From positions 51,685,561-51,749,560 of the forward strand of contig NC_088775.1 in assembly GCF_954871325.1 (NCBI RefSeq): a stretch of DNA of 64,000 nucleotides, in the 5' to 3' direction. Under the pieces are notes generated by a model. It searched no databases and was not told the origin of the DNA. It worked only from the letters and a program-made list of their open reading frames with translations. Numbering within the stretch: position 1 is the first letter of the stretch; every line of letters begins with the position of its first letter. Below, in pieces: positions 5,109 through 62,597 of the stretch. The stretch comes from Gordionus sp. m RMFG-2023. Its lineage: Eukaryota > Nematomorpha > Gordioida > Chordodea > Parachordodidae. The translations under genes were made by a program, and so were the position numbers.

Positions 5109-5244
5109 CCGCGAAACTTTTTCCAGGATGCTTTATCGCGAAAACATATAGCGAATGCATTACCGCGAATGTAATCGCGAATGCATCATAGCGAATGTAT
5201 TAGCGCGAATACATAACCGCGAATGCATTATTGCGATGCATTAT
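5109..5244 (+). repeat. Left array of the 14-bp unit CGCGAATGCATTAT
   Basis: About nine units, for example AGCGAATGCATTAC, CGCGAATGCATCAT, AGCGAATGTATTAG, CGCGAATACATAAC and CGCGAATGCATTAT. Most are exactly 14 bp, with a few 12-13 bp units. Confidence 0.85.
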
Positions 5245-6036
5245 CAAGTATGCAATGGTGATTTAACTTTAACAAATGGTTGATATAATTAATAAAAGTA
5301 TTAAAATTTTTGCTACTTATCCACTTATTTTCTAATAAGGAGTTCATCATTAATGTTTTTAATTCTTGTGAAATTAAGGGCTATATTTTACAAATTTTTC
5401 TTTTATGTTTGTAAGATTCAAAAGGTTTGTAGCCTATTTGATAATTTTTCGGTATATGGAACCCGTATTTTGTCTCTTTAAAGCTTGTTTAACTGAACTA
5501 TTCCACTTTTTCATAGAGATTTCAGGAATTGAACTTCATTCCAATTTTTCTTCTCATGGCATAATTTTATCAATGATAAAATATACTTCATTTACAAAAT
5601 TATCGTATGTTTATATTGTTAGTGGCATTTAATACTGAGATTTGTTAAAATACAGAAATATTTTGTGTTATAGTTTATGATTTAGGAGAAATTTTTAAAA
5701 AGATGAGTGTCCCGACTACATTTTTTTATCTTAATTTTCTGAAAACATACTTTAAAAAAATTTAAAATATCTTGAGAATATTAAGACACAATAAAATAGA
5801 TTTCATAAAAAAACGAATGACGCGTTTCAGAGTTATAAAAATTTCAAAACGCGACGGTTTTAGCTACCCGGTCCAATTTTTGATCTCATGATAAACTTTC
5901 TTCCAAGGGACAAGGGCTAGTCGGCGTTTATGTCAAAATCGTCATACGCTTGAAAATAATTGTTGTAATTGAATTTATAAAATACTATGAGATAGTCCAA
6001 CAAACACTTACCTAAAGTTAAAAGAAATATTTACAG

Positions 6037-6192: not shown

Positions 6193-7113
6193 ATTTATGA
6201 CATTCGCCAGATTAATAAAATATATCTGAACTGAAATGGAAATATATAATAATTTGTTTTCAAAATAGCTAAGTTATTTTTAATAGGTATGTTCAATTCA
6301 TTCAATTTTAGCTAAACTTATATTTAATATGTTTCTATATACATTTTTTTACAATTTTGTCAATCATATAACTAAAAAAAGACTCGTCAGGAAGCAAGAA
6401 CTTAACAAGAATCAATTAAGGAAATCATATTCTAATGTTTTTCCCAATTCCTGAGTCACAATAGTCATTTCATTATCAGAGATTACATGAATAAGGTTCT
6501 GAGATGTAGCCATTCAATTCGACAATATACCTATGATGCTGAATATTGTTTTATGTCTTGTTGTGATAAGCTTATCTTTTTGATTAAGCAATAAGAGAAC
6601 TTTATACAAATTTATTATCAAAAAATGTTTAACAAGTCAATACTAAATCCCTCACTAATTAAAACATGTTTTGTCAAAGAATAATATAAATGATTTCCGT
6701 GGACTAATTATCTGTTTGGCTCAATGTTTTAAATAAGACTTTTCTTAGCGCCTTAAAAATTTAATTTATTTCAGCCAAAATTCCATCCAAAATCTTTATC
6801 AACTTTTAGGCTTGAGCCTAGCCATTATTTTAAATTTTAGGCCTGAGCTTGTCCTGTCACAAATTTAATTGAAAAATATAACTCAACGCATATTTAAACA
6901 ATCAATTAATATTAGAATCTTTTTTATATCTTTTGAGTCAAAAAAATCAAAAGCTCTAGCCCTATTTTCAAAAAAAATTTTTTTTAAGACCCAAGCCCGA
7001 CTTTAACTTAATTTCCAGGTTCAACTAATTCTGTCTAAAGGCCGATAAATATAAAATTGTAATTTTCATCAAACACAATTTATGATATTGAAACTGATGT
7101 AATTCATATAAGA

Positions 7114-7267
7114 TAATGCATTCGCGATCATACATTTGCGTTAATACATTCGCTTTAAAATTTTCGCGATAATTTATTCGCTATAATGCATTCGCAGTAA
7201 AGCTTTTGCTGCAATGCATTCGAAAAAATGCTTTCGCTATGATACATTTGCTATAATTCATTCGCTG
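7114..7267 (-). repeat. Right array of the 14-bp unit, inverted
   Basis: Read on the minus strand it splits into eleven consecutive 14-bp units (AGCGAATGAATTAT, AGCAAATGTATCAT, AGCGAAAGCATTTT and so on to CGCGAATGCATTAT) with no length variation, mirroring 5109-5244. Confidence 0.9.
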
Positions 7268-8286
7268 TAAGTTGGCTAAAATCTCTTCAATTATAGGCAA
7301 TGGATATTCAACCTCCACAACCCAATGATTGAAAGTAACCCGGGCGGGGCTAAACCTTTTAAAAATTTCGGGCCGGGCTTGAAAAATTAGGCTCGATGCA
7401 GATCACTAATATTTATGTATAAAATCTTTTTTTTCGTCATATTTTATCTGTGAATATGGATAGATTTTTTGTGGTGGTAAATAATATGTATGAGCTTTAG
7501 TAGTTGGGTATGTCAAATCGATCAAAAAAACGAAATTTTGAACAACCAAATGAAACTTAGCGTAATAGTTATTTATGCTGTATATAGTAAAATCAAAATT
7601 TTGGAACATTACTCAATCAGATCCAAAGATATACGTCTTTAAAGTCAGAATTGACCTATTGCGTTATTTCCTTAAATCTTATTTTTTAAAATACTTATTA
7701 GAGTTATAAATTATATATCATTTTATAGCCCTTAAAATTCTATATTGGAAAATATAAAAAAAATTAAAAAATTATATATATTTTCGGTAAAATAAAATAT
7801 TAACATTGTTGAGAAGGTATTTTTTTGGGTGTTGATATTCGCTAGGAATGTTTATTATCTTCATATATAACTGTTTAACCATAAATTTAGAAAGCCATTT
7901 TTGTTTTTTTAATTTTATTAAAATTTTTGTTATGCTTTAGATGGCGTTATATTTAAAAATCATTATAATATAATATATTTAATAAAAATCTGTATTGAGA
8001 TAGTAAAAATAAAACACATTCATTAAGTATAACCAATATGATGTCCTGGGGCGTAGGACGCTAAATTGTAAAATAAACATATTTTAAAATTTTATAAAAA
8101 CTATTATAAAAATATCTCATCTATATCGCATTTCCATTTTATGCTTATTAATAGAATTTCCTAAGGCCATAATTTTATAAATATATCCTGTAAGGTGTTG
8201 TGTATCTATTATCGTTATTATTTGATGTCACTTGTGGGGTAAGAGATGTGGTTATGGGGATTTTGGTATATCTACTAAATATTTAC

Positions 8287-24798: not shown

Positions 24799-26723
24799 AT
24801 GCCTCGGAAATCTTCCAATATCTGGAAACATTTTATTAAAGATAGAGCTAATAACAAGAAAGGATATATATCAATATACAAATATTGTCAATTAACATAT
24901 AATTTCCCAAATTCAACAAAGATGTCTCAGCATATCAAAAAATGATAAGGGTATATTAACAGTTTACAATTTATTAAGTTGATCGTGATAATAATAATTC
25001 TACTGAAGAGGATGTTGTACTATGTTTACCAGATTCCAGTAATCCTAATAAAATTATATCCCAAAAAAACATAAATAAAACCATTCTAAATACTTTTAAA
25101 GAAAATACCAATAATTTTAATGCTGGCACATCTAAAATTAAAAATTTTTTCGACACTATAACCGAACAAAATCAAACGCAAGTTGACAGTGCTTTGGCAT
25201 TGGCTATTTTTATGTCAAATTGCCCTTTTAATTTAGTTGAAAATAAATATTTCATCAATTTTTTAAAATTAATGCGTCCAGCCTATAAAATTCCTTCTAG
25301 ACATGCAATTAGTAAAACATTACTAGATTATTAAAGTGAAAAATATTATTAACAATAAATTCAATAATTTAAAAGATTTTACTCTCATAAGCGATGGCTG
25401 GACAAATATTCGCGGAGAGTCTATTATTAATTTTATAATAATGACTCCAGAACCAATTTTTTTTAAATCCATTGACACAGGTTGTAGTGCTCACACTGAT
25501 GAATATATCGCATCTGAGTTGATCAAGGTAAAGAATAAATTGGTTGTCAAAAATTTATCTCACTAGTAACTGATAATGCAAAGAATCTGAAAAAGGCCTG
25601 GAGTCTTGTTAAGGCAAAATATAATTATATTGAATGCTTTGGATGTGCCGCACATGGGTTGAATCTGCTTATTAAAGATTTATGCCAAATACCTTTTATT
25701 GAAAAGATCATCAAAAAAACCAAGCAAATAATTAAATATATAAAATTTCATGGTATTTTATTAGCAACTTTTAAAGAACGGCAAATATTGAAAGGATATA
25801 AATCTTCCTTAAAAATTCCAAGTCCGACAAGATGGGGAGGTTTTGTTATAATGTTGCAAAGTGTTGTGAAAAATAAGGAAGTTTTGCAAGAAATTGTAAT
25901 TTCTAGTTTATTTACAAACAAACAAAGAAGGCTTATTATATTAGACAAAGAAGGATACTGGGATAAATTAGAGTCTGTACTGACCTTTTTGGAATTTATT
26001 TATAAGAAAATTATATTTGTAGAATCGGATTCAGCGGTATTATCTGACGTTCCAGAAATATTTTGGGACATAAAAGATAAACTCAATTCATCAACCTTTA
26101 TTTTTAATGAAAATGATTTGAAAAGTGTTAAGATGCATATTAAAAAACGAAAGAAATTTTGTTGCCGAGAATATCATTATGCAACAAATCTTCTGGATCC
26201 TCGATATTACGGTGTGAAATTCACAGACCGTGAATTGACAGCAGCTTTAAATATAATAAATATTATTTCAGGCCAAATTAATTGCGGTATTGGAAAAATT
26301 ATTGGTAATTTAGCAGAATATCGTTCAAAACAAGGTTTCTATAAAGGAGCTGGCATATGGGAGAGCTCAATCCCTACAAAACCACTCATATGGTGGAAAG
26401 GGTTGTGTACAAATCAACCCCTTTGTCAAGTGGCAGTAAGATGTCTTTCGATACCACCCTCAAGTGCCTCATCAGAAAGAGTCTGGTCAGCATTTGAAAA
26501 AATTCATTTTAAAACGAGAAATAGAATAAAGAATGAAAGAGTCGAAAAATTAATATCAATAAGGCATAACATATATTTAAAGGATCATACAAATACATCA
26601 AGTTCGGGATATCATCAAAAGAGTTCAGATTCCGATTTATCAATACCAAGTGATAATGATGATATTTCAATTTCATCCCATGAAGATATTGATGCTATTT
26701 CATTAGCATCCCAAGAATTTTAA
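24799..26723 (+). pseudogene. hAT family 3 transposase pseudogene
   Basis: Four frame segments in the expected order. (1) From ATG at 24799, MPRKSSNIWKHFIKDRANNK, a BED finger that has lost its Cys pair (IYKYCQLTYN) but keeps an H-x2-KK end; stops TGATAA near 24942. (2) About 24974-25332, VDRDNNNSTEEDVVLCL through DSALALAIFMSNCPFNLVE and PAYKIPSRHAISKTLL. (3) 25336-25566, with LISDGWTNIRGESIINFIIM, the first catalytic-Asp strand. (4) 25566-26723, with SLVTDNAKNLKKAW (second Asp), CAAHGLNLLIKDL, SPTRWGGF, LLDPRYYG, and the C-terminal dimerisation motif PPSSASSERVWSAFEK. Three frame breaks separate these. The last open segment alone is 354 residues, so the copy is fairly young. The protein ends in an acidic Ser-rich tail. 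Confidence 0.85.
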
Positions 26724-27425: not shown

Positions 27426-27861
27426 CATCTTATATTGAAGGAACTAACTCAATACTTAACACATGTAAAATGTACCCAAAAAGTACATGAGTTTTCTTCA
27501 ATATTTAAAAAGACATTTAATTATTAATAATTTTATTTATATAATATAACTAGATAAAATCATTAAATTTGAATAAAAAATGCATTTGGGCTATTTAACT
27601 CCAACAATAACGATAGTTATGTTAACATTAAAAAAAATAGTGGTCTAAAATATGAACAACTATTGATAGATGCAGTATTAAATAGGATTAATAAAAGGTA
27701 TTAAACCTATCACTATCAAATTAATTACATATAGTTTATTTTTTTAAAGATTTGAACACTAGTGTTATTGAAAAAATGCATTGAAAGCCCTAGAAATGAT
27801 GATACAAGAACTGTTAATTACGAGATATCCATTTATTTTGACGAGGAATTAGAGGAAAAAA

Positions 27862-30090
27862 TATTTTTTGAATTTCAAAAAGATTTTTGAACATATTTTG
27901 ATTTGATGAATTTAATTTTCTTTGATCTTTTTTGAGGAATTCTTTTGTGAATTTTATTATAAATGAACAATCTTTTAGGTGAAATCTTTTATAAAATTTT
28001 TTTATCATTTATGTATAATTATTAATTTTTTTAAGTATATCAAAAGAGGTGGTTTTTTCTAAATATTTATTTTAAACTTTTTATAATTAAAATTTCAATT
28101 AAGATGTACCATATAAAAGTGACAATTGCCATAATCGTTATTTTTAAAGTTTTTTGCCGTAAAGGGGCTAAAATAAGTATTGTTATCATGTTTAAATAAA
28201 ATTTTAGTGAAGATGTACTCTAGATAAGTGACAATTGTCATAATAGTTTTAAAGTTTTTGGACGTAAATGGGCTAAAATAAATATTGCTAACATGTTTGA
28301 TTAAAACTTTAGTGAAGATGTACCCTAGTTACGTGACAATTGTCATAATCGTTATTTTTAAAGTTTTTTGACGCAAATGGGTAAAAATATAGATTGTAAA
28401 CATCACCATAAAAAAGTGTCAATTCTTATCGTATTATTAAAGTTTTTTTTGACGTATGGGCTAAAATAAGTATTGCTAACATGTTTAAATTTCAATGAAG
28501 ACGTACCCTAGATAAGTGACAATTGTCATAATCGTTATTTTTAAAGTTTTTTGACACAAATGGGCAAAAATATATATTGTAAATATGTCAAATTAAAATT
28601 TCATGAAAATGTTGCATGGAAAAGTGACAATTGTTATAATCGTTATTTTTAAACATTTTCCAATATTTTTTGAGAAATCATTTTAAAAAAGAAATTGTGT
28701 TTAAATTTTATTGGAATAATTCAGAAAAGTGCCAATTATCACAATCTTCGTTCTTTAACTTTCTTATTTTTGAGAAATGTGTTGATACCATTTGGCGAAA
28801 CAAAAAACAAATGAAAATTTTCATGCTCATAATGGTACCTTTTATCCTGCTTAAAATTTGATAAAAATATGCAAAGTGATTACAAAATAGGTTTGTAACT
28901 CTGTTAAATTCTAAACTTTTAAGATATGGATTCACAATCTTATTCCTTCAATTAATAAATTTTAATTCTACATCTATTAAAATGTAAAATCCTGCATTCA
29001 GTTAGCCAAAATTTTGTATACTCACGGCGAATCATGCTGAGTCTTAATTCAGGGTAAGATTTTTATGAAAAGAATTAAAAACCTTATGAATATTTTTCAT
29101 CAATATGATACAATCAGCATCCTATAAATTTTATCTAAAGATTTTGAATTTTATATACACATGGTAAAAATAGATTTCAATCTATATTTTACAGCCCATT
29201 TGCGTCAAAAAAATTCAAAAAACTTTAAATATAACGATTATGACAATTGTCACTCTTATATGGTCCATCTTCATGAAATTTTAATTTAACATGTTTACAA
29301 TCTATATGTTTACCCATTTGCGTCAAAAAAATTAAAAATAACGATTATGACAATTGTCACTTATCTAGAATACATCTTCACTATAGTTTTATTTAAACAT
29401 GTTAGCAATACTTATTATAGCCAAATTACGTAAAGAAACTTTAAAAATAACGATTATGACAATTCTCACTAATCTAGGGTACATATTCACTGAAGTTTAA
29501 TTAAACATGATAGATATACTTATTTTAGCCCATTTATATCAAAAAAATTTAATAAACTTTAAAAATAATGATTATGACAATTGTAATTTTATATGATACA
29601 TCCAAATTGAAATTTTAATTTAACATGTTAAAAATAAATATTTGCCCATTAGCGTCAAAATAAATCTAATGTTTAAAAATACCGAATATGATAATTGTTT
29701 CCAAGGAACATCTTCATTGAATTTATAATTTAACATATTAACAATATAAATTATATTTTTACACTTTTGTGTCAAAAATCTTAAAATAACGAATATGACA
29801 ATTGTCACATTAAAATATTATCATTAAAAAGATCATATAAAATAACATAAAAAAGTTGAATATAAATATTTTAAAAAAAATATTTATAAAAAAGACCTCT
29901 TTTAATATACTTATAGATAATTTTAAAAAAAAGGTATAAAAAAATATTATAAAAGATTTTACCTAAAAGATTGTTAAAGAACTCCTCAAAAAAGATTTAT
30001 TTAGAAAGAAGATTTAAAATTCTTATCAAATCAAAATATGCAAATCCTTTTGAACTTCAAAATAAATTTTTTGCTTAAAATTTTGGGCGT
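27862..30090. mobile_element. Deleted relative of the 18-kb hAT (GACAATTGTC arrays)
   Basis: Long inverted arms. Outer parts: TTCAAAAAGATTTTTGAACA on the left against the complement of 30045-30070, and AACAATCTTTTAGGTGAAAT at 27968 against the complement of ATTTTACCTAAAAGATTGTT near 29955. Inner parts are arrays of a roughly 115-bp unit containing GTGACAATTGTCATAATCG: plus-oriented at 28100-28650 (five units) and inverted at 29210-29810 (six units). The unpaired centre is about 28660-29200. No transposase. It sits within hAT copy c, whose coding sequence is cut after GACGAGGAATTAGAGG. Confidence 0.8.
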
Positions 30091-44042: not shown

Positions 44043-44599
44043 TAGGGATATACCGATATTTTTTATAGGATCGGATCGGGCCGATATTTCATCCATTTTA
44101 AAATATCTGTTATAGGCCAATATTAAAAAAAATTTAACAAGCCCAAAATTTTGAGGAAAAAATCTTTGAAGATTAAATTTTACGAAAATTTTTTGGCTAA
44201 AATAAATTTGAGCTAAATTTTTTGTAAAAAAATCTTCTATGATTTTGAGAAAATTTTTTTTAATTTTATAATATACTAAAATCTTTAGTAAGAAAATCTT
44301 TATTATAATAAAACATTTTTGATCCTAAAATATTTTGTACAAATATTTTGTGATTTTTTAAAAATAAAATTTTTGAGATATATGTTTTTATTTTATTTTT
44401 TGATCTTAGAAAAATATTATTTTTCATAAGTTGTAAATGTGAGAATTTAACGATTACATATTTTTTAATATTTGGTGTTTTATTTAATGTAAAGTATAAA
44501 AGTGACATACTCGTCTCAGAACCTTTAAAAATAATTTTTATTAAAATAAGCTAGTTGAGTATGTTTCAAGATGGTTTCAGTGATTGTAAAGGATATAAA

Positions 44600-45470
44600 G
44601 GTGACAATTGTCATAATTGTTAATTATCAACATTATTAAATTTTTTTAAAGCAAATAAATAAAAATATGTTTTGTAAACATGTTAAATTAAAATTTCAGT
44701 GAAGATGTTACCATAGAAAAGTGACAATTGTCATAATCAATAATTATCAACATTTTTAAATTTTTTTAAAGCAAATAAGTAAAAATATGTTTTTTGTAAA
44801 CATGTTAAATTAAAATTTCAGTGAAGATGTACCGTAGAAAAGTGACAATTGTTATAATCGTTAATTATCAACATTTTTTAATTTTTTTAAAGCAAATAAG
44901 TAAAAATATGTTTTGTAAACATTTTAAATTAAAATTTCAGTGAAGATATAAAAAGAGAAGTGACAATAGTCATAATCGTTAATTATCAACATTTTTAAAT
45001 TTTTTTAAGCAAATAAGTAAAAAATATGTTTTATAAACAAGTTAAATTAAAATTTCAGTGAAGATGTATGATAGAAAAGTGACAATTGTCATAATCATTA
45101 TTTTTGAACTTTTTGAGTTTTTTAAAAGTAAATAGGTAAAAATATGTTTTATAAACCTATTAAATTAAAATGAAGATGTATCATAGAAAAGTGACAATTG
45201 TCATAATCATTATTTTTGAACTTTTTTGAGTTTTTTAAAGTAAACAGATAAAAATATGTTTTGTAATTGTAAATATTTAAATTTCATGAAATATGTATCA
45301 TAGAAAAGTTACAATTGTCATAATCATTATTTTTGAATTTTTTTAAAGCTAATAGGTAAAATTATATATTGTAAACATTTTAAATTTCAGTGAAGATATA
45401 CCATAGAAAAGTGACTATTGTTATTTTTAAGCATTTTCTAATTTTTTTGTAGTAATGAGCTTACTACCTA
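44600..45470 (+). repeat. Left array of about 117-bp units with GACAATTGTC
   Basis: Eight units, each with GTGACAATTGTCATAATCRT, AATTTTTTTAAAGCAAATA, AAAAATATGTTTTGTAAACA and ATTTCAGTGAAGATGTACC. Starts near 44600, 44720, 44841, 44960, 45078, 45191, 45307 and 45410. Confidence 0.9.
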
Positions 45471-45591
45471 TAAAGGTGACAATTGTCTTATAACTCATTT
45501 TATATATTTTTAAATTAAACATAAGTAAAAATGTTCTGATATAATTTAAAACTAGACAATTATCAAATTCTCAACTCCCTTTTGAAATTAT

Positions 45592-47176: not shown

Positions 47177-47986
47177 CCATCTGGGAAATACATTTTTTAT
47201 ACCTTAACATTTGATTTTTTTTTATAAATATAAATAAAAAAACATTAAATAATAAATAAATGTATCCCAAATTTATAAAAAGGGGGGTTTTATATTTTAT
47301 TTTTTATTCATTTTTCTTCTATAACATTAATTCGGGTAGGTCTATAAGTCGAAAGGCTGCATGATACGAAAGGCTAAAAAATAATATTGAAAATAAAAAT
47401 AACAAAGAAAATGATTAATGTGTAATTTGATTGATTTATTGCTTTTTTTACGAGAAAAATATTATAATAACATTACATTATAATATATTAAAAAAATGGA
47501 AATTTTAAGATCTTTTCAATTTTTTTATTAATTCTTTGAAATAAATTACGGTTTTAATTTTATTTAATTTTATTAATTTTTAATTTATATTTTTAATTTA
47601 TATTTTTAATTAAATTATATTTATTTATTTAAAAAAAATGGAATATAATATATTAAAAAAATGGAAATTTTAAGATCTTTTCAATTTTTTTATTAATTCT
47701 TTGAAATAAATTGCGGTTTTATTTTTATTTTTATTTAATTTTTATTTTTAATTAAATTATATTTGGTTATTTTAAAAAAATGGATTATAATATTTCAATT
47801 TTTTTATTAATTCTTTGAAATAAATTGCGATTATAATTTTATTTAATTTCATTAATTTTTAATTTATTTAAATTATTTGGTTATTTTAAAATAATGGAAT
47901 TTTTAAAATTATATGTATATTCTATTTAAGTTTTTTTTCAAAACTAAATTGATAGTAAGTATAACGATATTGTGAGTACTGGATTA

Positions 47987-50900
47987 GGGAAAAGGCTAAC
48001 ATCTTATATGCAATTTTGAATATTTTTATATCATTCTACTCAGAATTAAATTTCCTATCTAAATATGCTTTGATGTATTTTTTCACGTTTCCGGTTCAAA
48101 AAATAACATTTTTGTCGCGAAAACGTTCGAAGGGAAAAGGCTAACATCTTAAGTTTAATTTTATAAATTTTTATATCATTGAACTCAGAATTAAATTTCC
48201 TATCTAAATATGCTTTGATGTAATTTTTTACGTTATCGGTTCAAAAAATAAATTTTAAAAATTTTTTTGTGGTAAAAACGTTGGAAGGGAAAAGGCTAAC
48301 ATCTTATATGCAATTTTAAATATTTTTATATCATTCTACTCAGAATTAAATTTCCTATCCAATTATGCTTAGATGTATTTTTTTACGTTTCCGGTTCAAA
48401 AAATAACATTTTTGTCGCGAAAACGTTCGAAGGGAAAAGGCTAACATCTTAAGTTTAATTTTATAAATTTTTATATCATTGAACTCAGAATTAAATTTCC
48501 TATCTAAATATGCTTTGATGTATTTTTTTACGTTATTGGTTCAAAAAATAAATTTTAAAAATTTTTTTGTGGTAAAAACGTTGGAAGGGAAAAGACTAAC
48601 ATCTTATATGCAATTTTGAATATTTTTATATCATTCTACTCAGAATTAAATTTCCTATCCAATTATGCTTAGATGTATTTTTTTACGTTTTCGGTTCAAA
48701 AAATAACATTTTTGTCGCGAAAACGTTCGAAGGGAAAAGGCTAACATCTTTAGTTTAATTTTATAAATTTTTATATCATTGAACTCAGAATTAAATTTCC
48801 TATCTAAATATGCTTTGATGTATTTTTTTATGTTATTGGTTCAAAAAATAAATTTTAAAAATTTTTTTGTGGTAAAAACGTTGGAAGGGAAAATGCTAAC
48901 ATCTTATATGCAATTTTGAATATTTTTATATCATTCTACTCAGAATTAAATTTCCTATCCAATTATGCTTAGATGTATTTTTTTACGTTTCCGGTTCAAA
49001 AATAACATTTTTGTCGCGAAAACGTTCGAAGGGAAAAGGCTAACATCTTTAGTTTAATTCTATAAATTTTTATATCATTGAACTCAGAATTAAATTTCCT
49101 ATCTAAATATGCTTTGATGTAATTTTTTACGTTATCGGTTCAAAAAATAAATTTTAATAATTTTTTTGTGGTAAAAACGTTGGAAGGGAAAAGGCTAACA
49201 TCTTATATGCAATTTTGAATATTTTTATATCATTCTACTCAGAATTAAATTTCCTATCCAATTATGTTTAGATGTATTTTTTTACGTTTACTGTTCAAAA
49301 AATAACATTTTTGTCGCGAAAACGTTCGAAGGGAAGGCAAACATCTTTAGTTTAATTCTATAAATTTTTATATCATTGAACTCAGAATTAAATTTCCTAT
49401 CTAAATATGCTTTGATGTAATTTTTTACGTTATTGGTTCAAAAAATAAATTTTAAAAATTTTTTTGTGGTAAAAACGTTGGAAGGGAAAAGGCTAACATC
49501 TTATATGCAATTTTGAATATTTTTATATCATTCTACTCAGAATTAAATTTCCTATACAATTATGTTTAGATGTATTTTTTTACGTTTACGGTTCAAAAAA
49601 TAACATTTTTGTCGCGAAAACGTTCGAAGGGAAGGCAAACATCTTTAGTTTAATTCTATAAATTTTTATATCATTGAACTCAGAATTAAATTTCCTATCT
49701 AAATATGCTTTGATGTAATTTTTTACGTTATCGGTTCAAAAAATAAATTTTAATAATTTTTTTGTGGTTAAAACGTTGGAAGGGAAAAGGCTAGCATCTT
49801 ATATGCAATTTTGAATATTTTTATATCATTCTACTCAGAATTAAATTTCCTATCCAATTATGCTTAGATGTATTTTTTTACGTTTCCGGTTCAAAAAATA
49901 ACATTTTTGTCGCGAAAACGTTCGAAGGGAAAAGGCTAACATCTTAAGTTTAATTTTATAAATTTTTATATCATTGAACTCAGAATTAAATTTCCTATCT
50001 AAATATGCTTTGATGTATTTTTTTACGTTATTGGTTCAAAAAATAAATTTTAAAAATTTTTTTGTGGTAAAACGTTGGAAGGGAAAAGGCTAACATCTTA
50101 TATGCAATTTTGAATATTTTTATATCATTCTACTCAGAATTAAATTTCCTATACAATTATGCTTAGATGTATTTTTTTACGTTTCCGGTTCAAAAAATAA
50201 CATTTTTGTCGCGAAAACGTTCGAAGGGAAAAGGCTAACATCTTAAGTTTAATTTTATAAATTTTTATATCATTGAACTCAGAATTAAATTTCCTATCTA
50301 AATATGCTTTGATGTAATTTTTTACGTTATCGGTTCAAAAAATAAGATTTAAAAATTTTTTTGTGGTAAAAACGTTGGAAGGGAAAAGGCTAACATCTTA
50401 TATGCAATTTTGAATATTTTTATATCATTCTACTCAGAATTAAATTTCCTATCCAATTATGCTTAGATGTATTTTTTTACGTTTTCGGTTCAAAAAATAA
50501 CATTTTTGTCGCGAAAACGTTCGAAGGGAAAAGGCTAACATCTTTAGTTTAATTTTATAAATTTTTATATCATTGAACTCAGAATTAAATTTACTATCTA
50601 AATATGCTTTGATGTATTTTTTTATGTTATTGTTTCAAAAAATAAATTTTAAAAATTTTTTTGTGGTAAAAACGTTGGAAGGGAAAAGGCTAACATCTTA
50701 TATGCAATTTTGAATATTATCATTCTACTCAGAATTAAATTTCCTATCCAATTATGCTTAGATGTATTTTTTTACGTTTCCGGTTCAAAAATAACATTTT
50801 TGTCGCGAAAACGTTCGAAGGGAAAAGGCTAACATCTTTAGTTTAATTCTATAAATTTTTATATCATTGAACTCAGAATTAAATTTCCTATCTAAATATG

Positions 50901-51147
50901 CTTTGATGTAATTTTTTACGTTATCGGTTCAAAAAATAAATTTTAATAATTTTTTTGTGGTAAAAACGTTGGAAGGGAAAAGGCTAACATCTTATATGCA
51001 ATTTTGAATATTTTTATATCATTCTACTCAGAATTAAATTTCCTATCTAAATATGCGTTGATGTAATTTTTTACGTTATCGGTTCAAAAAATAAATTTTA
51101 ATAATTTTTTTGTGGTAAAAACGTTGGAAGGGAAAAGGCTAACATCT
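47987..51147 (+). repeat. Left satellite array, 300-bp dimer, about 10.5 copies
   Basis: The dimer is made of two related monomers of about 150 bp. Monomer A has ATCATTCTACTCAGAATTAA, ATCCAATTATGCTTAGATGT and TTTTTGTCGCGAAAACGTTC. Monomer B has ATCATTGAACTCAGAATTAA, ATCTAAATATGCTTTGATGT and TTTTGTGGTAAAAACGTTGG. Both begin GAAGGGAAAAGGCTAACATC. Spacing is exactly 300 bp in most repeats (for example 48131, 48431, 48731). Confidence 0.95.
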
Positions 51148-51184
51148 GAGTAGAATGATATAAAAATATTCAAAATTGCATATA

Positions 51185-54100
51185 AGATGTTAGCCTTTTC
51201 CCTTCCAACGTTTTTACCACAAAAAAATTTTTAAAATTTATTTTTTGAACCAATAACGTAAAAAAATACATCAAATCATATTTAGATAGGAAATTTAATT
51301 CTGAGTTCAATGATATAAAAATTTATAAAATTAAACTAAAGATGTTAGCCTTTTCCCTTCGAACGTTTTCGCGACAAAAATGTTATTTTTTGAACCGAAA
51401 ACGTAAAAAAATACATCTAAGCATAATTGGATAGGAAATTTAATTCTGAGTAGAATGATATAAAAATATTCAAAATTGCATATAAGATGTTAGCCTTTTC
51501 CCTTCCAACGTTTTTACCACAAAAAATTTTTTAAAATTTATTTTTTGAACCAATAACGTAAAAAAATACATCAAAGCATATTTAGATAGGAAATTTAATT
51601 CTGAGTTCAATGATATAAAAATTTATAAAATTAAACTAAAGATGTTAGAATTTTCCCTTCGAACGTTTTCGCGACAAAAATGTTATTTTTTGAACCGGAA
51701 ACGTAAAAGAATACATCTAAGCATAATTGGATAGGAAATTTAATTCTGAGTAGAATGATATAAAAATATTCAAAATTGCATATAAGATGTTAGCCTTTTC
51801 CCTTCCAACGTTTTTATCACAAAAAAATTATTAAAATTTATTTTTTGAACCGATAACGTAAAAAATTACATCAAAGCATATTTAGATAGGAAATTTAATT
51901 CTGAGTTCAATGATATAAAAATTTATAAAATTAAACTTAAGATGTTAGCCTTTTCCCTTCGAACGTTTTCGCGACAAAAATGTTATTTTTTGAACCGGAA
52001 ACGTAAAAAAATACATCTAAGCATAATTGGATAGGAAATTTAATTCTGAGTAGAATGATATAAAAATATTCAAAATTGCATATAAGATGTTAGCCTTTTC
52101 CCTTCCAACGTTTTTATCACAAAAAAATTATTAAAATTTATTTTTTGAACCGATAACGTAAAAAATTACATCAAAGCATATTTAGATAGGAAATTTAATT
52201 CTGAGTTCAATGATATAAAAATTTATAAAATTAAACTTAAGATGTTAGCCTTTTCCCTTCGAACGTTTTCGCGACAAAAATGTTATTTTTTGAACCGGAA
52301 ACGTAAAAAAATACATCTAAGCATAATTGGATAGGAAATTTAATTCTGAGTAGAATGATATAAAAATATTCAAAATTGCATATAAGATGTTAGCCTTTTC
52401 CCTTCCAACGTTTTTATCACAAAAAAATTATTAAAATTTATTTTTTGAACCGATAACGTAAAAAATTACATCAAAGCATATTTAAATAGGAAATTTAATT
52501 CTGAATTCAATGATATAAAAATTTATAAAATTAAACTAAAGATGTTAGCCTTTTCCCTTCGAACGTTTTCGCGACAAAAATGTTATTTTTTAAACCGGAA
52601 ACGTAAAAAAATACATCTAAGCATAATTGGATAGGAAATTTAATTCTGAGTAGAATGATATAAAAATATTCAAAATTGCATATAAGATGTTAGTCTTTTC
52701 CCTTCCAACGTTTTTACCACAAAAAAATTTTTTAAATTTATTTTTTGAACCAATAACGTAAAAAAATACATCAAAGCATATTTAGATAGGAAATTTAATT
52801 CTGAGTTCAATGATATAAAAATTTATAAAATTAAACTTAAGATGTTAGCCTTTTCCCTTCGAACGTTTTCGCGACAAAAATGTTATTTTTTGAACCGGAA
52901 ACGTAAAAAAATACATCTAAGCATAATTGGATAGGAAATTTAATTCTGAGTAGAATGATATAAAAATATTTAAAATTGCATATAAGATGTTAGTCTTTTC
53001 CCTTCCAACGTTTTTACCACAAAAAAATTTTTAAAATTTATTTTTTGAACCGATAACGTAAAAAATTACATCAAAGCATATTTATATAGGAAATTTAATT
53101 CTGAGTTCAATGATATAAAAATTTATAAAATTAAACTTAAGATGTTAGCCTTTTCCCTTCGAACGTTTTCGCGACAAAAATGTTATTTTTTGAACCGGAA
53201 ACGTAAAAAAATACATCTAAGCATAATTGGATAGGAAATTTAATTCTGAGTAGAATGATATAAAAATATTCAAAATTGCATATAAGATGTTAGCCTTTTC
53301 CCTTCCAACGTTTTTATCACAAAAAAATTATTAAAATTTATTTTTTGAACCGATAACGTATAAAATTACATCAAAGCATATTTAGATAGGAAATTTAATT
53401 CTGAGTTCAATGATATAAAAATTTATAAAATTAAACTTAAGATGTTAGCCTTTTCCCTTCGAACGTTTTCGCGACAAAAATGTTATTTTTTGAACCGGAA
53501 ACGTAAAAAAATACATCTAAGCATAATTGGATAGGAAATTTAATTCTGAGTAGAATGATATAAAAATATTCAAAATTGCATATAAGATGTTAGCCTTTTC
53601 CCTTCCAACGTTTTTATCACAAAAAAATTATTAAAATTTATTTTTTGAACCGATAACGTAAAAAATTACATCAAAGCATATTTAGATAGGAAATTTAATT
53701 CTGAATTCAATGATATAAAAATTTATAAAATTAAACTAAAGATGTTAGCCTTTTCCCTTCGAACGTTTTCGCGACAAAAATGTTATTTTTTGAACCGGAA
53801 ACGTAAAAAAATACATCTAAGCATAATTGGATAGGAAATTTAATTCTGAGTAGAATGATATAAAAATATTCAAAATTGCATATAAGATGTTAGTCTTTTC
53901 CCTTCCAACGTTTTTACCACAAAAAAATTTTTTAAATTTATTTTTTGAACCAATAACGTAAAAAAATACATCAAAGCATATTTAGATAGGAAATTTAATT
54001 CTGAGTTCAATGATATAAAAATTTATAAAATTAAACTTAAGATGTTAGCCTTTTCCCTTCGAACGTTTTCGCGACAAAAATGTTATTTTTTGAACCGGAA

Positions 54101-56607
54101 ACGTAAAAAAATACATCTAAGCATAATTGGATAGGAAATTTAATTCTGAGTAGAATGATATAAAAATATTTAAAATTGCATATAAGATGTTAGTCTTTTC
54201 CCTTCCAACGTTTTTACCACAAAAAAATTTTTAAAATTTATTTTTTGAACCGATAACGTAAAAAATTACATCAAAGCATATTTATATAGGAAATTTAATT
54301 CTGAGTTCAATGATATAAAAATTTATAAAATTAAACTTAAGATGTTAGCCTTTTCCCTTCGAACGTTTTCGCGACAAAAATGTTATTTTTTGAACCGGAA
54401 ACGTAAAAAAATACCTCTAAGCATAATTGGATAGGAAATTTAATTCTGAGTAGAATGATATAAAAATATTCAAAATTGCATATAAGATGTTAGCCTTTTC
54501 CCTTCCAACGTTTTTACCACAAAAAAATTATTAAAATTTATTTTTTGAACCGATAACGTAAAAAATTACATCAAAGCATATTTAGATAGGAAATTTAATT
54601 CTGAGTTCAATGATATAAAAATTTATAAAATTAAACTAAAGATGTTAGCCTTTTCCCTTCGAACGTTTTCGCGACAAAAATGTTATTTTTTGAACCGGAA
54701 ACGTAAAAAAATACATCTAAGCATAATTGGATAGGAAATTTAATTCTGAGTAGAATGATATAAAAATATTCAAAATTGCATATAAGATGTTAGTCTTTTC
54801 CCTTCCAACGTTTTTACCACAAAAAAATTTTTTAAATTTATTTTTTGAACCAATAACGTAAAAAAATACATCAAATCAAAGCATATTTAGATAGAAAATT
54901 TAATTCTGAGTTCAATGATATAAAAATTTATAAAATTAAACTTAAGATGTTAGCCTTTTCCCTTCGAACGTTTTCGCGACAAAAATGTTATTTTTTGAAC
55001 CGGAAACGTAAAAAAATACATCTAAGCATAATTGGATAGGAAATTTAATTCTGAGTAGAATGATATAAAAATATTAAAAATTGCATATAAGATGTTAGCC
55101 TTTTCCCTTCCAACGTTTTTACCACAAAAAAATTTTTAAAATTTATTTTTTGAACCGATAACGTAAAAAATTACATCAAAGCATATTTAGATAGGAAATT
55201 TAATTCTGAGTTCAATGATATAAAAATTTATAAAATTAAACTTAAGATGTTAGCCTTTTCTCTTCGAACGTTTTCGCGACAAAAATGTTATTTTTTGAAC
55301 CGGAAACGTAAAAAAATACCTCTAAGCATAACTGGATAGGAAATTTAATTCTGAGTAAAATGATATAAAAATATTCAAAATTGCATATAAGATGTTAGCC
55401 TTTTCCCTTCCAACGTTTTTACCACAAAAAAATTATTAAAATTTATTTTTTGAACCGATAACGTAAAAAATTACATCAAAGCATATTTAGATAGGAAATT
55501 TAATTCTGAGTTCAATGATATAAAAATTTATAAAATTAAACTAAAGATGTTAGCCTTTTCCCTTCGAACGTTTTCGCGACAAAAATGTTATTTTTTGAAC
55601 CGAAAACGTAAAAAAATACATCTAAGCATAATTGGATAGGAAATTTAATTCTGAGTAGAATGATATAAAAATATTCAAAATTGCATATAAGATGTTAGCC
55701 TTTTCCCTTCCAACGTTTTTACCACAAAAAAATTTTTAAAATTTATTTTTTGAACCAATAACGTAAAAAATTACATCAAAGCATATTTAGATAGGAAATT
55801 TAATTCTGAGTTCAATGATATAAAAATTTATAGAATTAAACTAAAGATGTTTGCCTTTTCCCTTCGAACGTTTTCGCGACAAAAATGTTATTTTTTGAAC
55901 CGAAAACGTAAAAAAATACATCTAAGCATAATTGGATAGGAAATTTAATTCTGAGTAGAATGATATAAAAATATTCAAAATTGCATATAAGATGTTAGCC
56001 TTTTCCCTTCCAACGTTTTTACCACAAAAAATTTTTTAAAATTTATTTTTTGAACCAATAACGTAAAAAAATACATCAAAGCATATTTAGATAGGAAATT
56101 TAATTCTGAGTTCAATGATATAAAAATTTATAAAATTAAACTAAAGATGTTAGAATTTTCCCTTCGAACGTTTTCGCGACAAAAATGTTATTTTTTGAAC
56201 CGGAAACGTAAAAGAATACATCTAAGCATAATTGGATAGGAAATTTAATTCTGAGTAGAATGATATAAAAATATTCAAAATTGCATATAAGATGTTAGCC
56301 TTTTCCCTTCCAACGTTTTTACCACAAAAAAATTATTAAAATTTATTTTTTGAACCGATAACGTAAAAAATTACATCAAAGCATATTTAGATAGGAAATT
56401 TAATTCTGAGTTCAATGATATAAAAATTTATAGAATTAAACTAAAGATGTTAGCCTTTTCCCTTCGAACGTTTTCGCGACAAAAATGTTATTTTTGAACC
56501 GGAAACGTAAAAAAATACATCAAAGCATATTTAGATAGGAAATTTAATTCTGAGTAGAATGATATAAAAATATTCAAAATTGCATATAAGATGTTAGCCT
56601 TTTCCCT
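51185..56607 (-). repeat. Right satellite array, inverted, about 18 copies
   Basis: Same A/B dimer on the minus strand, phase-locked at 300 bp over 5.4 kb. Longer duplications are visible inside: 52381-53580 and 53581-54780 share rare variants at 1200-bp spacing (CTGAATTCAATGATAT, TAGTCTTTTCCC, TTTATATAGGAAAT), and 51481-51720 shares TAGAATTTTCCC and GTAAAAGAATAC with 56001-56220. Confidence 0.95.
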
Positions 56608-58248
56608 AATCCAGTACTCACAATATCGTTATACTTACTATCAATTTAGTTTTGAAAAAAAACTTAAATAGAATATACATATAATTTAAAAATTCCATTA
56701 TTTTAAAATAACCAAATAATTTAATTAAAAATATAAATTAAAAATTAATGAAATTAAATAAAATTATAATCGCAATTTATTTCAAAGAATTAATAAAAAA
56801 ATTGAAATATTATAATCCATTTTTTTAAAATAACCAAATATAATTTAATTAAAAATAAAAATTAAATAAAAATAAAAATAAAACCGCAATTTATTTCAAA
56901 GAATTAATAAAAAAATTGAAAAGATCTTAAAATTTCCATTTTTTTTAATATATTATATTCCATTTTTTTTAAATAAATAAATATAATTTAATTAAAAATA
57001 TAAATTAAAAATTAATAAAATTAAATAAAATTAAAACCGTAATTTATTTTAAAGAATTAATAAAAAAATTGAAAAGATCTTAAAATTTCCATTTTTTTAA
57101 TATATTATAATGTAATGTTATTATAATATTTTTCTCGTAAAAAAAGCAATAAATCAATCAAATTACACATTAATCATTTTCTTTGTTATTTTTATTTTTA
57201 ATATTATTTTTTAGCCTTTCGTATCATGCAGCCTTTCGACTTTTAGACCTTGCGCATTAATTCCTGATTTTTTTTTCAAAATATAATAAACAAGTTAAAA
57301 TATAAATAAAAATTTAAAAGGAAAACATAAAAGTTAAAGATAGCAAAATTTTTATTTTAATTTTATATAATGCTTTCAAGCCAAAATAAAAAAAATATTC
57401 TTAAAGATATCCTAAAGGAGCATTTTTTTAATAGATTCCTCTAAAAATTTAGCGACTTGCAGCATGTGTGACAAAAAGATGAAGTCGATACCATGTATGA
57501 TAAATTATTTAATATATTTTTCTAGCAAATCTTAAAAGGCACATAACGTCTCAGCACCCGACCATAATGAAAGCAGATGAATCTAATAGTTATTCGTCAT
57601 TCAATGCTAGAAATACAGCAAAAGAAAAATTCTAAAAAATTAAAATAGATAAATCAAAAGTATTTCAAAATATTTAAATGATACAATAAAAATCAATATT
57701 TATTTTTTAGGTTTTTGAATCCATAGTACGGTTGACTAAAGTTAATAATTTACCCATTAATATGGTCAATTATGAGGGCTTCCGTATTACTAGACCCCAT
57801 ATGTCATTCTCTTCAAATAAAAATAAATACTCGTTCAGTGGTCGACAAAATAAAATATACCGCATCCGAAATTAGATTACAAATTATACACGAATTAAAA
57901 AACAAGCTGATTTCTTTCAAAATTGATACAGCTACCAGATATAATAAATCAATATTAGGCATAAATGTTCAGTATATAAAAGATGGCCATATAGAAGTGT
58001 GAACACTTGGAATGATAGAACTTCTTAAAAATCATACAGGTGCTAACCTAAAAGAAGAGATACATACAATTTAAAAAAAATACCAACTTGATTTAAAACA
58101 AATTTATAGCATTACAGTGGATAACGGCGCGAATATGATTAAAATGGTTAATATTATTGCAAAAGATCAAAATGATTTATCAAATGTTGATGAAAACAAA
58201 TTCAGCGATATTTTTGATACTAGTGTAAGTGGTGAAGATAATATATGT

Positions 58249-59755: not shown

Positions 59756-61289
59756 ATATATGTATTGATGAAAACATTTCAGTTTTCTCTGATGAAGAAA
59801 TACCAGAGGGTATTGACGAATATTATGATAATACAGACAAAATATTAGATGATATGAGCAAAAGCTTTGGTCTAAGCTGTATAAGATGTTCAGCTCATAC
59901 TAAAAAACATATTTAAAATTGGATTTAGTCAAAATTCGGGACATCATAAAATAAATAAAATCTCAAAAATATAAAAATTTATTTATAATGGATAAAGTTA
60001 CCAAACCCACTCTAGATACTATTACTAGGTGGAATAGTACATATCTCATGTTAAAAAATCTTATAGATAATAAAGAATTTTATGTTAAAATGGGTGAGTT
60101 ATACCCAGAAACTTTGATTAGTTTGGATTTATGGGATATAATTCAATTTGGCACTTCTATACTAATGCCATTATACTTATTTAATCTGAAATTACAAAAA
60201 AAATATTGTAATTGGTGATTATTTTGCTTCTTGGCTAGAATGCAAAATGGAACTGAAGAAATGGATAATCAGTTATCTAAAAATATGTTAGAGTGTTTGA
60301 ACATGAGAGAAAGTTTTCTCTTTCAAAATGATGCATTTCGAAGTGCTATTTATATGGATCCAAGATTCCATTATGAAAATGGGAAATATTTTTCGAAAGA
60401 CGATAAAGTATTGGCCAGGGTAAATTAATAAACTTATAATATACATCTTTTTTATTTTAGGAACATATATTTGCAACCTGGAAACAATTGCAAATTATTG
60501 ACCCATATAAAGAACATCCAACCTTGATTTTGCCTCCTACAAAAGATTATAAAAAAACCAAACTTGATCTCTATATCGAGCGTGATTGCAAAAAAGTGCC
60601 TGTTTATTATGAAGAGGGGAATAGTGATATCAAACTTAAAATAGAGTCTCTCTTATACAACAAAAGACTACTATCCAACCAAGATATTTTACAATATTGG
60701 CTTTCACGAAAACACCAAGATACAGATTTATTTAAATTGTCTCAAGTAATTCTCGCTGCTCCTTGCGCTCAGGTCTCAGTTGAGAGAGCATTTAGTGCAT
60801 TAGCATAACTGTAACCTCTCTAAGGACAAGATTAGATAAAGATACACTTGATGATATTTTAATAATAAAACTAAATCGTACATTGTTAAATAATGTGATA
60901 TTTTAAATTATTATTTATATAACCTATTTCATTACATAGTTATAATTTACATTGAAATTTTAATAAATAAAAATTCATATAAAAGGATTGATTTGGATGA
61001 TAACAAAATAAATAGATTTTTTGTACGATTAGTATAATCAGATGGGGCATATTTTACTAGAATTATCCAAATAGTAATTTCTAAGATCAAAAATTTATTT
61101 AATATTTTTAAATGTTTTTGTCGTAAAGATATGTTTATTTAGTGCATCTTTTTAGTTGAACTCCATTCTAGCATCTAAAAATTTAACATATATAATACTA
61201 TTATCATCTGCAATGGAGTTGAGAATTAGATAATTATCTAGTTTAAAATTATATCAAAATATTTTTACGTTTGTTTAATTAAAAATATA

Positions 61290-61925
61290 TAAAATGAGTA
61301 ATAAGACAATTGTCACCTTTATAGGTAGTAAGCTCATTACTACCAAAAATTAGAAAAAGCTTAATAATAACAATGTCACTTATAAAAAATATTTTTACCT
61401 ATTTACTTTTAAAAAATATTCATAATTATGGATTATGACAATTGTCACTGTTCTATGGTACATCTTCACTGAAATTTTAATTTAACATGTTTACAAAACA
61501 TATTTTTACTTATTTGCTTTAAAAAAATTTGTTGATAATTAACGATTATGACAATTGTCACTTTTCTATGGTACATCTTCACTGAAATTTTAATTTAACA
61601 TGTTTACAAAACATATTTTTACTTATTTGCTTTAAAAAAATTTAAAAATGTTGATAATTAACGATTATGACAATTTTCACTTTTCTATGGTACATCTTCA
61701 TTGAAATTTTAATTTAACATGTTTACAAAACATTTTACTTATTTGCTTTAAAAAAATTTAAAAATGTTGATAATTATCGATTATGACAATTGTCTCTTTT
61801 CTATGGTACATCTTCACTGAAATTTTAATTTAACATGTTTACAAAACATATTTTTATTTATTTGCTTTAAAAAAAATTTAAAAATGTTGATAATTAACGA
61901 TTATGACAATTGTCACCTTTATATC
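61290..61925 (-). repeat. Right array of about 117-bp units with GACAATTGTC, inverted
   Basis: Units read AGTGACAATTGTCATAATCG on the minus strand, near 61436, 61550, 61670, 61788 and 61905. The spacer TTACTTATTTGCTTTAAAAA and GGTACATCTTCACTGAAAT mirror the left array at 44600-45470. Confidence 0.9.
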
Positions 61926-62597
61926 CTTTACAATCACTGAAACTATCTTGAAACATGCTCAACTAGCTTATTTTAAAAAATTATTTTTAAAGGTTCTGAG
62001 ATGAGTATGTCACTTTTATACTTTACATTAAATATAAATTAATTATGACAAAACACTAATTATTAAAAAATATGTAATCGTTAAATTCTCACATTTACAA
62101 CTTATGAAAAATAATATTTTTCTTAGATCAAAAAATAAAATAAAAGCAATCTCAAAAATTTTATTTTTAAAAAATCACAAAATATTTGTACAAAAAATTT
62201 TTGGATCAAAAATGTTTTATTATAATAAAGATTTTATCATATTATAAAATTCCAAAAATTATTTCTCAAATGAAGATTTTATTACAAAAAAACATTTTTT
62301 ATTTTGCTCAAAAATTTTCTTTTTCTTTGAGCAAGCTCAAAATTTTTTTAGCGAAAAAATCTTCGCATTTTTTGATCTTCAAAAGAGCTACGATCTATGA
62401 AGATTTTTTAATTTTGAGCAAATGTTAAACCCTGAAAAAATTTCCCCGACATAAAATGGCCTCTATAACAAAAATAAAATGTAAAAATTTTAAAAATGTT
62501 TATCTAAAATCATTTATTTTTATAAAATCGAAATCCATTTTTATTTATATTTTTTAAATAATAATTATTATTATTTTTTTGCGCATTCTGTTTATAA

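Follow-up and report, generated by a model that had tools for sequence, protein, structure and literature searches.

Introduction

The origin of new satellite DNAs and their dispersal to many places is a long-standing question, on which foldback transposons with tandemly repeated arms bear directly. As far as its published description extends, the Drosophila virilis foldback element Tetris consists of 220-bp tandem units with an outer flanking domain, is bordered by 8-10 bp duplications, has arms of up to 1.7 kb and is represented by three structurally complete copies, with no transposase found in that account (PMC4079207). Its repeats also form long satellite arrays of up to 66 copies, and membership of the Mutator superfamily has been proposed (PMC4079207); in a review table Tetris appears as a foldback element giving rise to satellite DNA (PMC9659126). 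Tm1, a Mutator/Foldback element of Meloidogyne, is reported to have units of about 14 bp and a transposase described with a FLYWCH domain (PMC3169594). Galileo, a Drosophila element of the P-superfamily, is described with a P-type transposase, 7-bp duplications, tandem repeats of about 210 bp in two to three copies in one subfamily, and chimeric copies with unlike flanks (PMC3573991). The present analysis concerns a 64,000-nucleotide stretch of the Gordionus sp. m RMFG-2023 genome (NC_088775.1, positions 51,685,561 to 51,749,560; hereafter the window, with a G+C content of about 26%), and specifically a foldback element of 9,921 bp at positions 47334-57254 that carries opposed arrays of a 300-bp satellite dimer.

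This element is very probably a non-autonomous cut-and-paste foldback element of the Mutator (MULE) type, derived by internal deletion, in a family marked by array turnover and by the occasional one-armed runaway of its satellite. Genome searches were made in the 287-Mb assembly containing the window, whose contigs include C1, C3, C4 and C166; L-numbers denote copies or ends. Among the open-licence PMC papers listed by literature searches, none describing the present transposon family was found.

Structure of the window element

The element and its flanks comprise the following features.

47325-47333, no strand: left 9-bp target site duplication CATTAATTC; with the flanks joined through one copy of it, 38 of 41 rows span the joint
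47334-47985, + strand: left arm, 652 bp, GGGT-type terminus; about 640 aligned bp without mismatch against the left arm of the transposase copy at C3:31.58 Mb
47986-51147, + strand: satellite array, about 10.5 copies of the 300-bp dimer; begins at the arm-array joint of the family
51145-51147, no strand: head-to-head array junction with a 3-bp microhomology, TCT; unique to the window among 16 copies compared
51145-56607, - strand: opposed satellite array, 18.2 copies of the 300-bp dimer, from Tandem Repeats Finder (TRF)
56608-57254, - strand: right arm, 647 bp, CGCA-type terminus; from self-comparison and comparison with other copies
57255-57263, no strand: right 9-bp target site duplication CATTAATTC; exact flank

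An initial annotation of this DNA had described a foldback with arms, opposed arrays and exact CATTAATTC flanks, all of which are borne out by TRF and by comparison of the window with itself. The halves 47338-51147 and 57250-53440 form an inverted repeat of 96.6% identity over 3,836 bp, and TRF places the 300-bp unit at 47986-51099 (+; 10.4 copies) and 51145-56607 (-; 18.2 copies). The units also resolve as monomers of 145 to 155 bp, a shift of half a dimer giving a match of about 80%, and the two arrays are unequal in length. CATTAATTC stands at 47325 and 57255 and has no further occurrence in the window on either strand. The ends had also been called matching, which holds for the arms (they differ by 0.5%) and fails for the last four bases; read inwards, the left end opens with GGGT and the right end with CGCA, an asymmetry shared by most other copies. 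The long inverted repeats consist mostly of tandem units whose number varies among copies, which is what defines a foldback element, and the window element itself contains no transposase.

A terminal motif within the satellite, AAAGGCTAA, was considered and set aside. It lies close to the end and within every monomer (48 times in the element, twice in the other 54 kb); shuffled dimers hold a comparable shared word in 95 of 2,000 trials, and in a test of the first 80 bases in 226 of 500, and the motif is kept as a lead only.

A dispersed family with 9-bp target site duplications

The assembly contains the 18-bp left end 89 times. When up to 3 mismatches are allowed, it contains a 31-bp core common to both ends 144 times (69 on one strand, 75 on the other) and the 34-bp arm-array joint 105 times (53 on one strand, 52 on the other); controls, reversed in the case of the left end, gave 0 in each search. 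Inverted pairs of joints number 37 and take up 74 of the 100 joints listed, spanning 1.3-17.8 kb with a median of 3.3 kb; the other 26 were excluded from pairing as unpaired, doubtful or located on C166. The copies read comprise the window element, 20 whole copies, one 14-kb transposase copy and both ends of 15 further pairs, one of which was completed as a 14-kb copy made up of arms and arrays alone. The order arm, array, opposed array, arm is present in 20 of the 21 whole copies first compared, L056 being without one array, and a single array reaches 8.4 kb in a 14-kb palindromic copy with a 9-bp duplication. At C1:57180470-57192431, three ends in the same orientation lie 5.4-5.9 kb apart, each with its own array joint, and seem to represent a tandem duplication of arm plus array.

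For duplications, 37 end pairs were compared (the window, the 20 whole copies, the transposase copy and the 15 further pairs), and an exact 9-bp duplication is present in 22. Twenty of these were found by script, which located both ends in 36 pairs, and L043 and L083/L084 were added after the true outer end had been read. When flanks of different copies were cross-paired as a control, one exact 9-bp match was obtained in 1,260. The L089/L090 duplication agrees at 8 of 9 positions, and in L050, L081/L082 and L095/L096 the exact match extends over no more than 8 bp. A or T dominates several of the duplications, and that of L045 is a run of A to which little weight can be given. Composite ends, with a GGGT-type tip of 20-odd bases lying outside a CGCA-type end, occur in L083 and L090, the duplications of these pairs being of 9 bp in L083/L084 and 8 of 9 in L089/L090; such ends may hint that one tip of each type is required. 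An earlier count of exact duplications among pairs with like ends, 0 of 6 (p 0.004), was dropped once the composite ends of L083 and L089/L090 had been read, leaving 0 of 4.

The flanks of the window element, joined with one copy of the duplication (271 bp), gave 41 rows against the genome (best 40 of 86 candidates). Thirty-eight cross the joint, for example at C1:19618732 (93%, query 93-271) and C1:69349446 (85%, query 1-271); of the other three, two come from the window's own flanks and the third is a fragment. Since the joined flanks align uninterrupted elsewhere, the insertion appears to lie inside a dispersed repeat, and judging by these alignments the element seems to have entered one copy of a repeat whose other copies stay uninterrupted at that place.

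A Mutator-type transposase within the same ends

One of the 20 whole copies, L054, holds 3.3 kb between its arrays with pieces of a Mutator-like open reading frame. A genome search with a 128-aa piece returned, among the best 150 of 254 candidates, six matches of 98-100% identity and a seventh of 89%, the remainder of those spanning query 1-128 staying at or below 57%; short pieces at 82-94% at C1:80.72 Mb are perhaps a decayed copy. Five of the seven closest matches lie inside end pairs of the family (C1:69.33, C3:11.02, C3:31.59, C1:36.20 and C4:14.64 Mb), and the other two lie beside an array (L061) and beside an arm and a diverged array (L065). Among the transposase-bearing end pairs, the duplication is exact at C3:11.02, C3:31.59 and C4:14.64, agrees at 8 of 9 positions at C1:36.20 and is absent from L054.

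The copy at C3:31.5846-31.5985 Mb (14 kb) consists of an arm, an array of 1.5 kb, an interior of 5.7 kb, an opposed array of 5.2 kb and an arm, between exact 9-bp duplications of ATATATTTT. Its right end starts AGCA, and its right arm contains a second, inner end. The interior has an open frame of 963 residues for a Mutator-type (MULE) transposase with an OTU-like N-terminus, in which the Pfam domain MULE (PF10551) is matched at 1.4e-6 (29.1 bits, above the cut-off of 27.6) and Transposase_mut at 0.0064, below cut-off. A FLYWCH domain, a trait of Tm1 and Phantom, is not among the Pfam matches of this frame at E<=1, and an unread upstream exon may exist. Twelve homologues at 31-34% identity were found in a protein database, where the 7,997 candidates with most common words were scored; the only one named in its source, from Pinctada, is likewise labelled OTU domain-containing. 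Residues D655, D727, C748, H751 and E844 are invariant across 14 aligned proteins, and we take them to be the D-D-E plus C-x2-H catalytic pattern of Mutator-type transposases.

Between the C3:31 and C3:11 frames there are 14 differences in 2,553 bases and no stop, giving nonsynonymous (dN) and synonymous (dS) divergences of 0.0044 and 0.0105. Comparison with a relative of 50% identity over 378 residues gives a dN of 0.42 and a dS of 1.58, a dS above 1 being a rough value only. These ratios suggest past selection on the transposase protein. The C3:31.58 copy is a putative autonomous copy. The family of the window element is a member of the Mutator (MULE) superfamily.

Palindrome junctions and probable internal deletion

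Five of the first 21 copies (L040, L042, L043, L054 and L056) retain interior, and all five hold a piece matching the interior of the C3:31.58 copy. In the remaining 16 the two arrays meet directly, head to head. When both sides of each junction were mapped onto the dimer, these 16 copies fell into 12 junction classes, nine of them single and three shared (L039/L046, L044/L049/L053 and L047/L048). Thirteen of the 16 junctions show an overlap of 0-3 bp or a 1-bp filler and L047 has 15 bp of filler; in L048 and L052, 67 and 111 bases were left unassigned by the script and are satellite by eye, L048 being classed with L047 on the same filler end and right-hand position.

L044, L049 and L053 share one junction, yet carry different duplications, TAAAACTTA, AAAAAATAT and AAAAAATAA, with array lengths of 174, 1,223 and 1,230 bp on the GGGT side and 1,130, 979 and 678 bp on the CGCA side. 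The duplications of L047 and L048 likewise differ, and in the L039/L046 class a duplication is present in L046 only. A common junction combined with differing duplications and lengths indicates that the palindromes moved after the junction had formed and that the arrays changed length. The palindromic copies look like internal-deletion derivatives of the transposase-bearing copy. Three of the junctions are found at more than one site, in most cases flanked by unlike duplications, and it follows that the transposon has taken the satellite with it when moving.

The initial annotation had described a foldback transposon and had deduced a Mutator-like transposase from the length of the duplication. 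That reading has gained support from further copies with 9-bp flanks, putative empty sites and a MULE-bearing copy with the window's arms and satellite. Searching on the same end, as it had suggested, uncovers a dispersed family, many members of which have 9-bp flanks; the duplication, exact at the window, is so in 22 of the 37 pairs; the search for empty sites yields putative uninterrupted places (38 of 41 rows); and the search for a transposase gene sharing the ends leads to five of seven closest matches within pairs of those same ends. Its further suggestion, that a satellite can be carried and spread as transposon arms, agrees with the recurrence of three junctions at separate sites.

Array turnover and satellite blocks

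Divergence was measured on 168 full dimers, each at least 88% like those of the window, and averages 0.017 within an arm, 0.022 between the arms of one copy and 0.035 between copies. In the 15 copies, of 22, that have units in each arm, the paired arms of one copy diverge by 0.030 vs 0.039 for permuted pairs (p 5e-5). The arrays of the C3:31 copy are very uniform (0.002-0.004 within, 0.026 to others).

A 48-bp monomer pattern has 1,695 genome matches (1,109 and 586 by strand; control 0), of which 216 lie within the 23 whole copies read and several hundred lie outside the copies and arrays located. Among the matches listed, up to 100 per search, two long arrays of a single orientation were located. 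One, of about 40 kb (C1:35.776-35.816 Mb), starts at an arm joint. The other, of about 190 kb, has units at C1:20,611,918-20,800,392, all those listed being in the same orientation and continuity having been sampled, and reaches an arm whose GGGT-type end lies at C1:20,801,328 (L009), no joint or end being among those listed on its other side. Each long array thus carries one arm. The clusters listed first adjoin arms, and a satellite confined to intact elements was considered; the long one-orientation arrays rule this out. Within the 190-kb array a higher-order repeat was not supported, a spacing of 7,453 bp recurring 12 times and a grid-based control giving more (mean 21).

Weighing the explanations

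In the explanation that we strongly favour, a transposase acting in trans would cut at the GGGT and CGCA ends, and insertion would follow with a 9-bp stagger. Internal deletions, probably arising in the repair of broken or incompletely copied elements, would have removed the transposase and joined the arrays, which would then expand, contract and partly homogenise within each copy; occasional runaway of arrays would give one-armed satellite blocks of 40-190 kb. Several observations weigh against this account. An exact 9-bp duplication is lacking in 15 of the 37 end pairs, including 11 with opposite ends, among them the transposase-bearing L054 (4 of 9 positions mismatched), although the flanks of three of these 11 agree exactly over 8 bp and those of a fourth at 8 of 9 positions. 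The pairs with like ends (L052, L077/L078, L097/L098 and L101/L102) have no exact duplication (0 of 4 vs 22 of 33 others, p 0.021). These four may be recombinants or false pairs: L101/L102 are separated by 28 kb and perhaps do not form a true pair, and the flanks of L097/L098 on C166 are mirror images, so that their 8-bp match arises only from a word identical to its reverse complement. The 38 putative empty sites are mostly about 74% alike in AT-rich DNA and were judged at the level of alignment rather than by the letters at the joint; the OTU match of the 963-residue frame (5.5e-4) falls just below its cut-off; and L040 holds a larger inserted piece with no match in the C3 interior. The 88% limit on the dimers also counts on this side, and so does the finding that, when an arm is compared with every opposite arm, the partner from the same copy ranks first in only 6 of 15 copies, from which it follows that homogenisation within copies is partial.

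That the palindrome is an assembly artefact, a false inverted duplication from mis-joining or from reads folding back, is scarcely credible for the window. A false fold predicts mirror-image flanks, whereas the window and 21 further pairs show a direct 9-bp repeat, the window's joined flanks match uninterrupted places elsewhere, and its arrays are of unequal lengths. Contig C166 (32 kb) may be such an artefact: the flanks of the end pair at C166:3331-20920 are mutual reverse complements over the roughly 66 bases read, and the contig may be an inverted duplication or an assembly fold. Local formation of palindromes by inverted duplication, or by recombination between elements in place of internal deletion, is improbable, if less so than an artefact. 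Exchange between copies would predict the absence of exact duplications in the four like-end pairs, and duplicated end fragments are present in the C3:31.58 right arm, L083 and L090; against it, parts of one common interior persist in the intermediate copies L040, L042, L043, L054 and L056, and copies with identical junctions lie at sites whose duplications differ.

The source of the satellite is a further matter. An older chromosomal satellite might have been captured between Mutator ends and not born in the arms, and the arrays of about 190 kb and 40 kb, the far greater abundance of the array unit (1,695 monomer matches) than of arms (144 ends) and the several hundred monomer matches outside copies and located arrays would all accord with capture. 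We nevertheless regard it as unlikely: the arm-array joint is one 34-bp sequence, with at most 3 mismatches at 105 places, both long arrays located have one arm, and the array clusters listed (best 38 of 615 candidates) lie, by eye, within about 8 kb of a listed joint. A bolder extension of the deletion-derived Mutator foldback, which we hold tentatively and at somewhat less than even chances, is that the transposon serves as a nursery for satellites, the dimer having been born and kept in the arms as serving transposition, for instance as putative repeated transposase-binding sites, and planted arrays seeding satellite loci. Each jump would plant a short array at a new site, and some of these would lose one arm and balloon into satellite blocks, so that one family would continually seed new satellite loci; the copies with shared junctions would represent an early stage, and the one-armed array of about 190 kb a late stage, of one cycle.

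Other repeats and an open frame in the window

A second inverted pair with tandem arms, of units of about 118 bp around GACAATTGTC, lies at 44184-45581 and 61212-62319, its arms being 82-88% alike. It surrounds the foldback element, which may therefore be nested in an older foldback; a short scan for its duplication found no convincing one. A smaller inverted pair at 27853-28673 and 29205-30075, of tandem units of about 105-110 bp, is related to the 118-bp family. At 5128-5245 and 7113-7270, 14-bp repeats of the ATGCATTATCGCGA type form inverted blocks that resemble by eye the 14-bp arm motif of Tm1, with no common word of at least 8 bp in a short scan of their flanks. An open frame of 394 residues at 25539-26723 (+) has hAT dimerisation and DUF659 domains.

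Comparison with known foldback elements

Tetris hinted that foldback arms supply satellites, but, as described, without a transposase and with few intact copies (PMC4079207). Here a single genome holds a putative autonomous copy, partial deletions, pure array palindromes that have moved since their junctions arose, and arrays of about 40 and 190 kb with a single arm, and the junctions and unit divergence let the order of events be read. The family provides a worked example of a transposon able to carry and seed satellite DNA, and suits the questions of whether arm repeats aid transposition and whether large palindromes promote rearrangement.

Arms of tandem units are shared with FB of D. melanogaster and FARE of Arabidopsis, as these are generally described, and long inverted repeats with tandem repeats, varying in size, with Galileo as published (PMC3573991). 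The statement in the initial annotation that known foldbacks have much smaller units does not hold for Tetris, whose reported units are of 220 bp (PMC4079207). Tetris and the present family, compared through the published description rather than the sequence of the Tetris arms or of TIR-220, are alike in their outer domain, in the satellite-sized tandem units of their arms and in the presence of those units in satellite arrays (PMC4079207). Unlike Tetris as there described, the present family has a transposase copy, a 14-kb palindrome, an 8.4-kb array, 12 junction classes in 16 copies and an array of about 190 kb (PMC4079207). Tm1, in the account available, shares with it 9-bp duplications, transposase-bearing and deletion-derived copies and unlike ends, and in both a copy with like ends and no duplication occurs (PMC3169594). 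The 7-bp Tm1 motif A2 (CCTACCC) is the exact reverse complement of the GGGTAGG end of the present family, whereas motif A1 (CGGTTAA) does not match its CGCAAGG, and the units are of about 14 bp in Tm1 and 300 bp here (PMC3169594). Tetris is thus the nearest precedent for satellite-sized arm repeats that form satellites, and Tm1 the nearest for a Mutator foldback with a transposase, 9-bp duplications and unlike ends; what is new is an unusually complete variant of such Tetris- and Tm1-like foldbacks, in which satellite-sized arm units are joined with a transposase copy.

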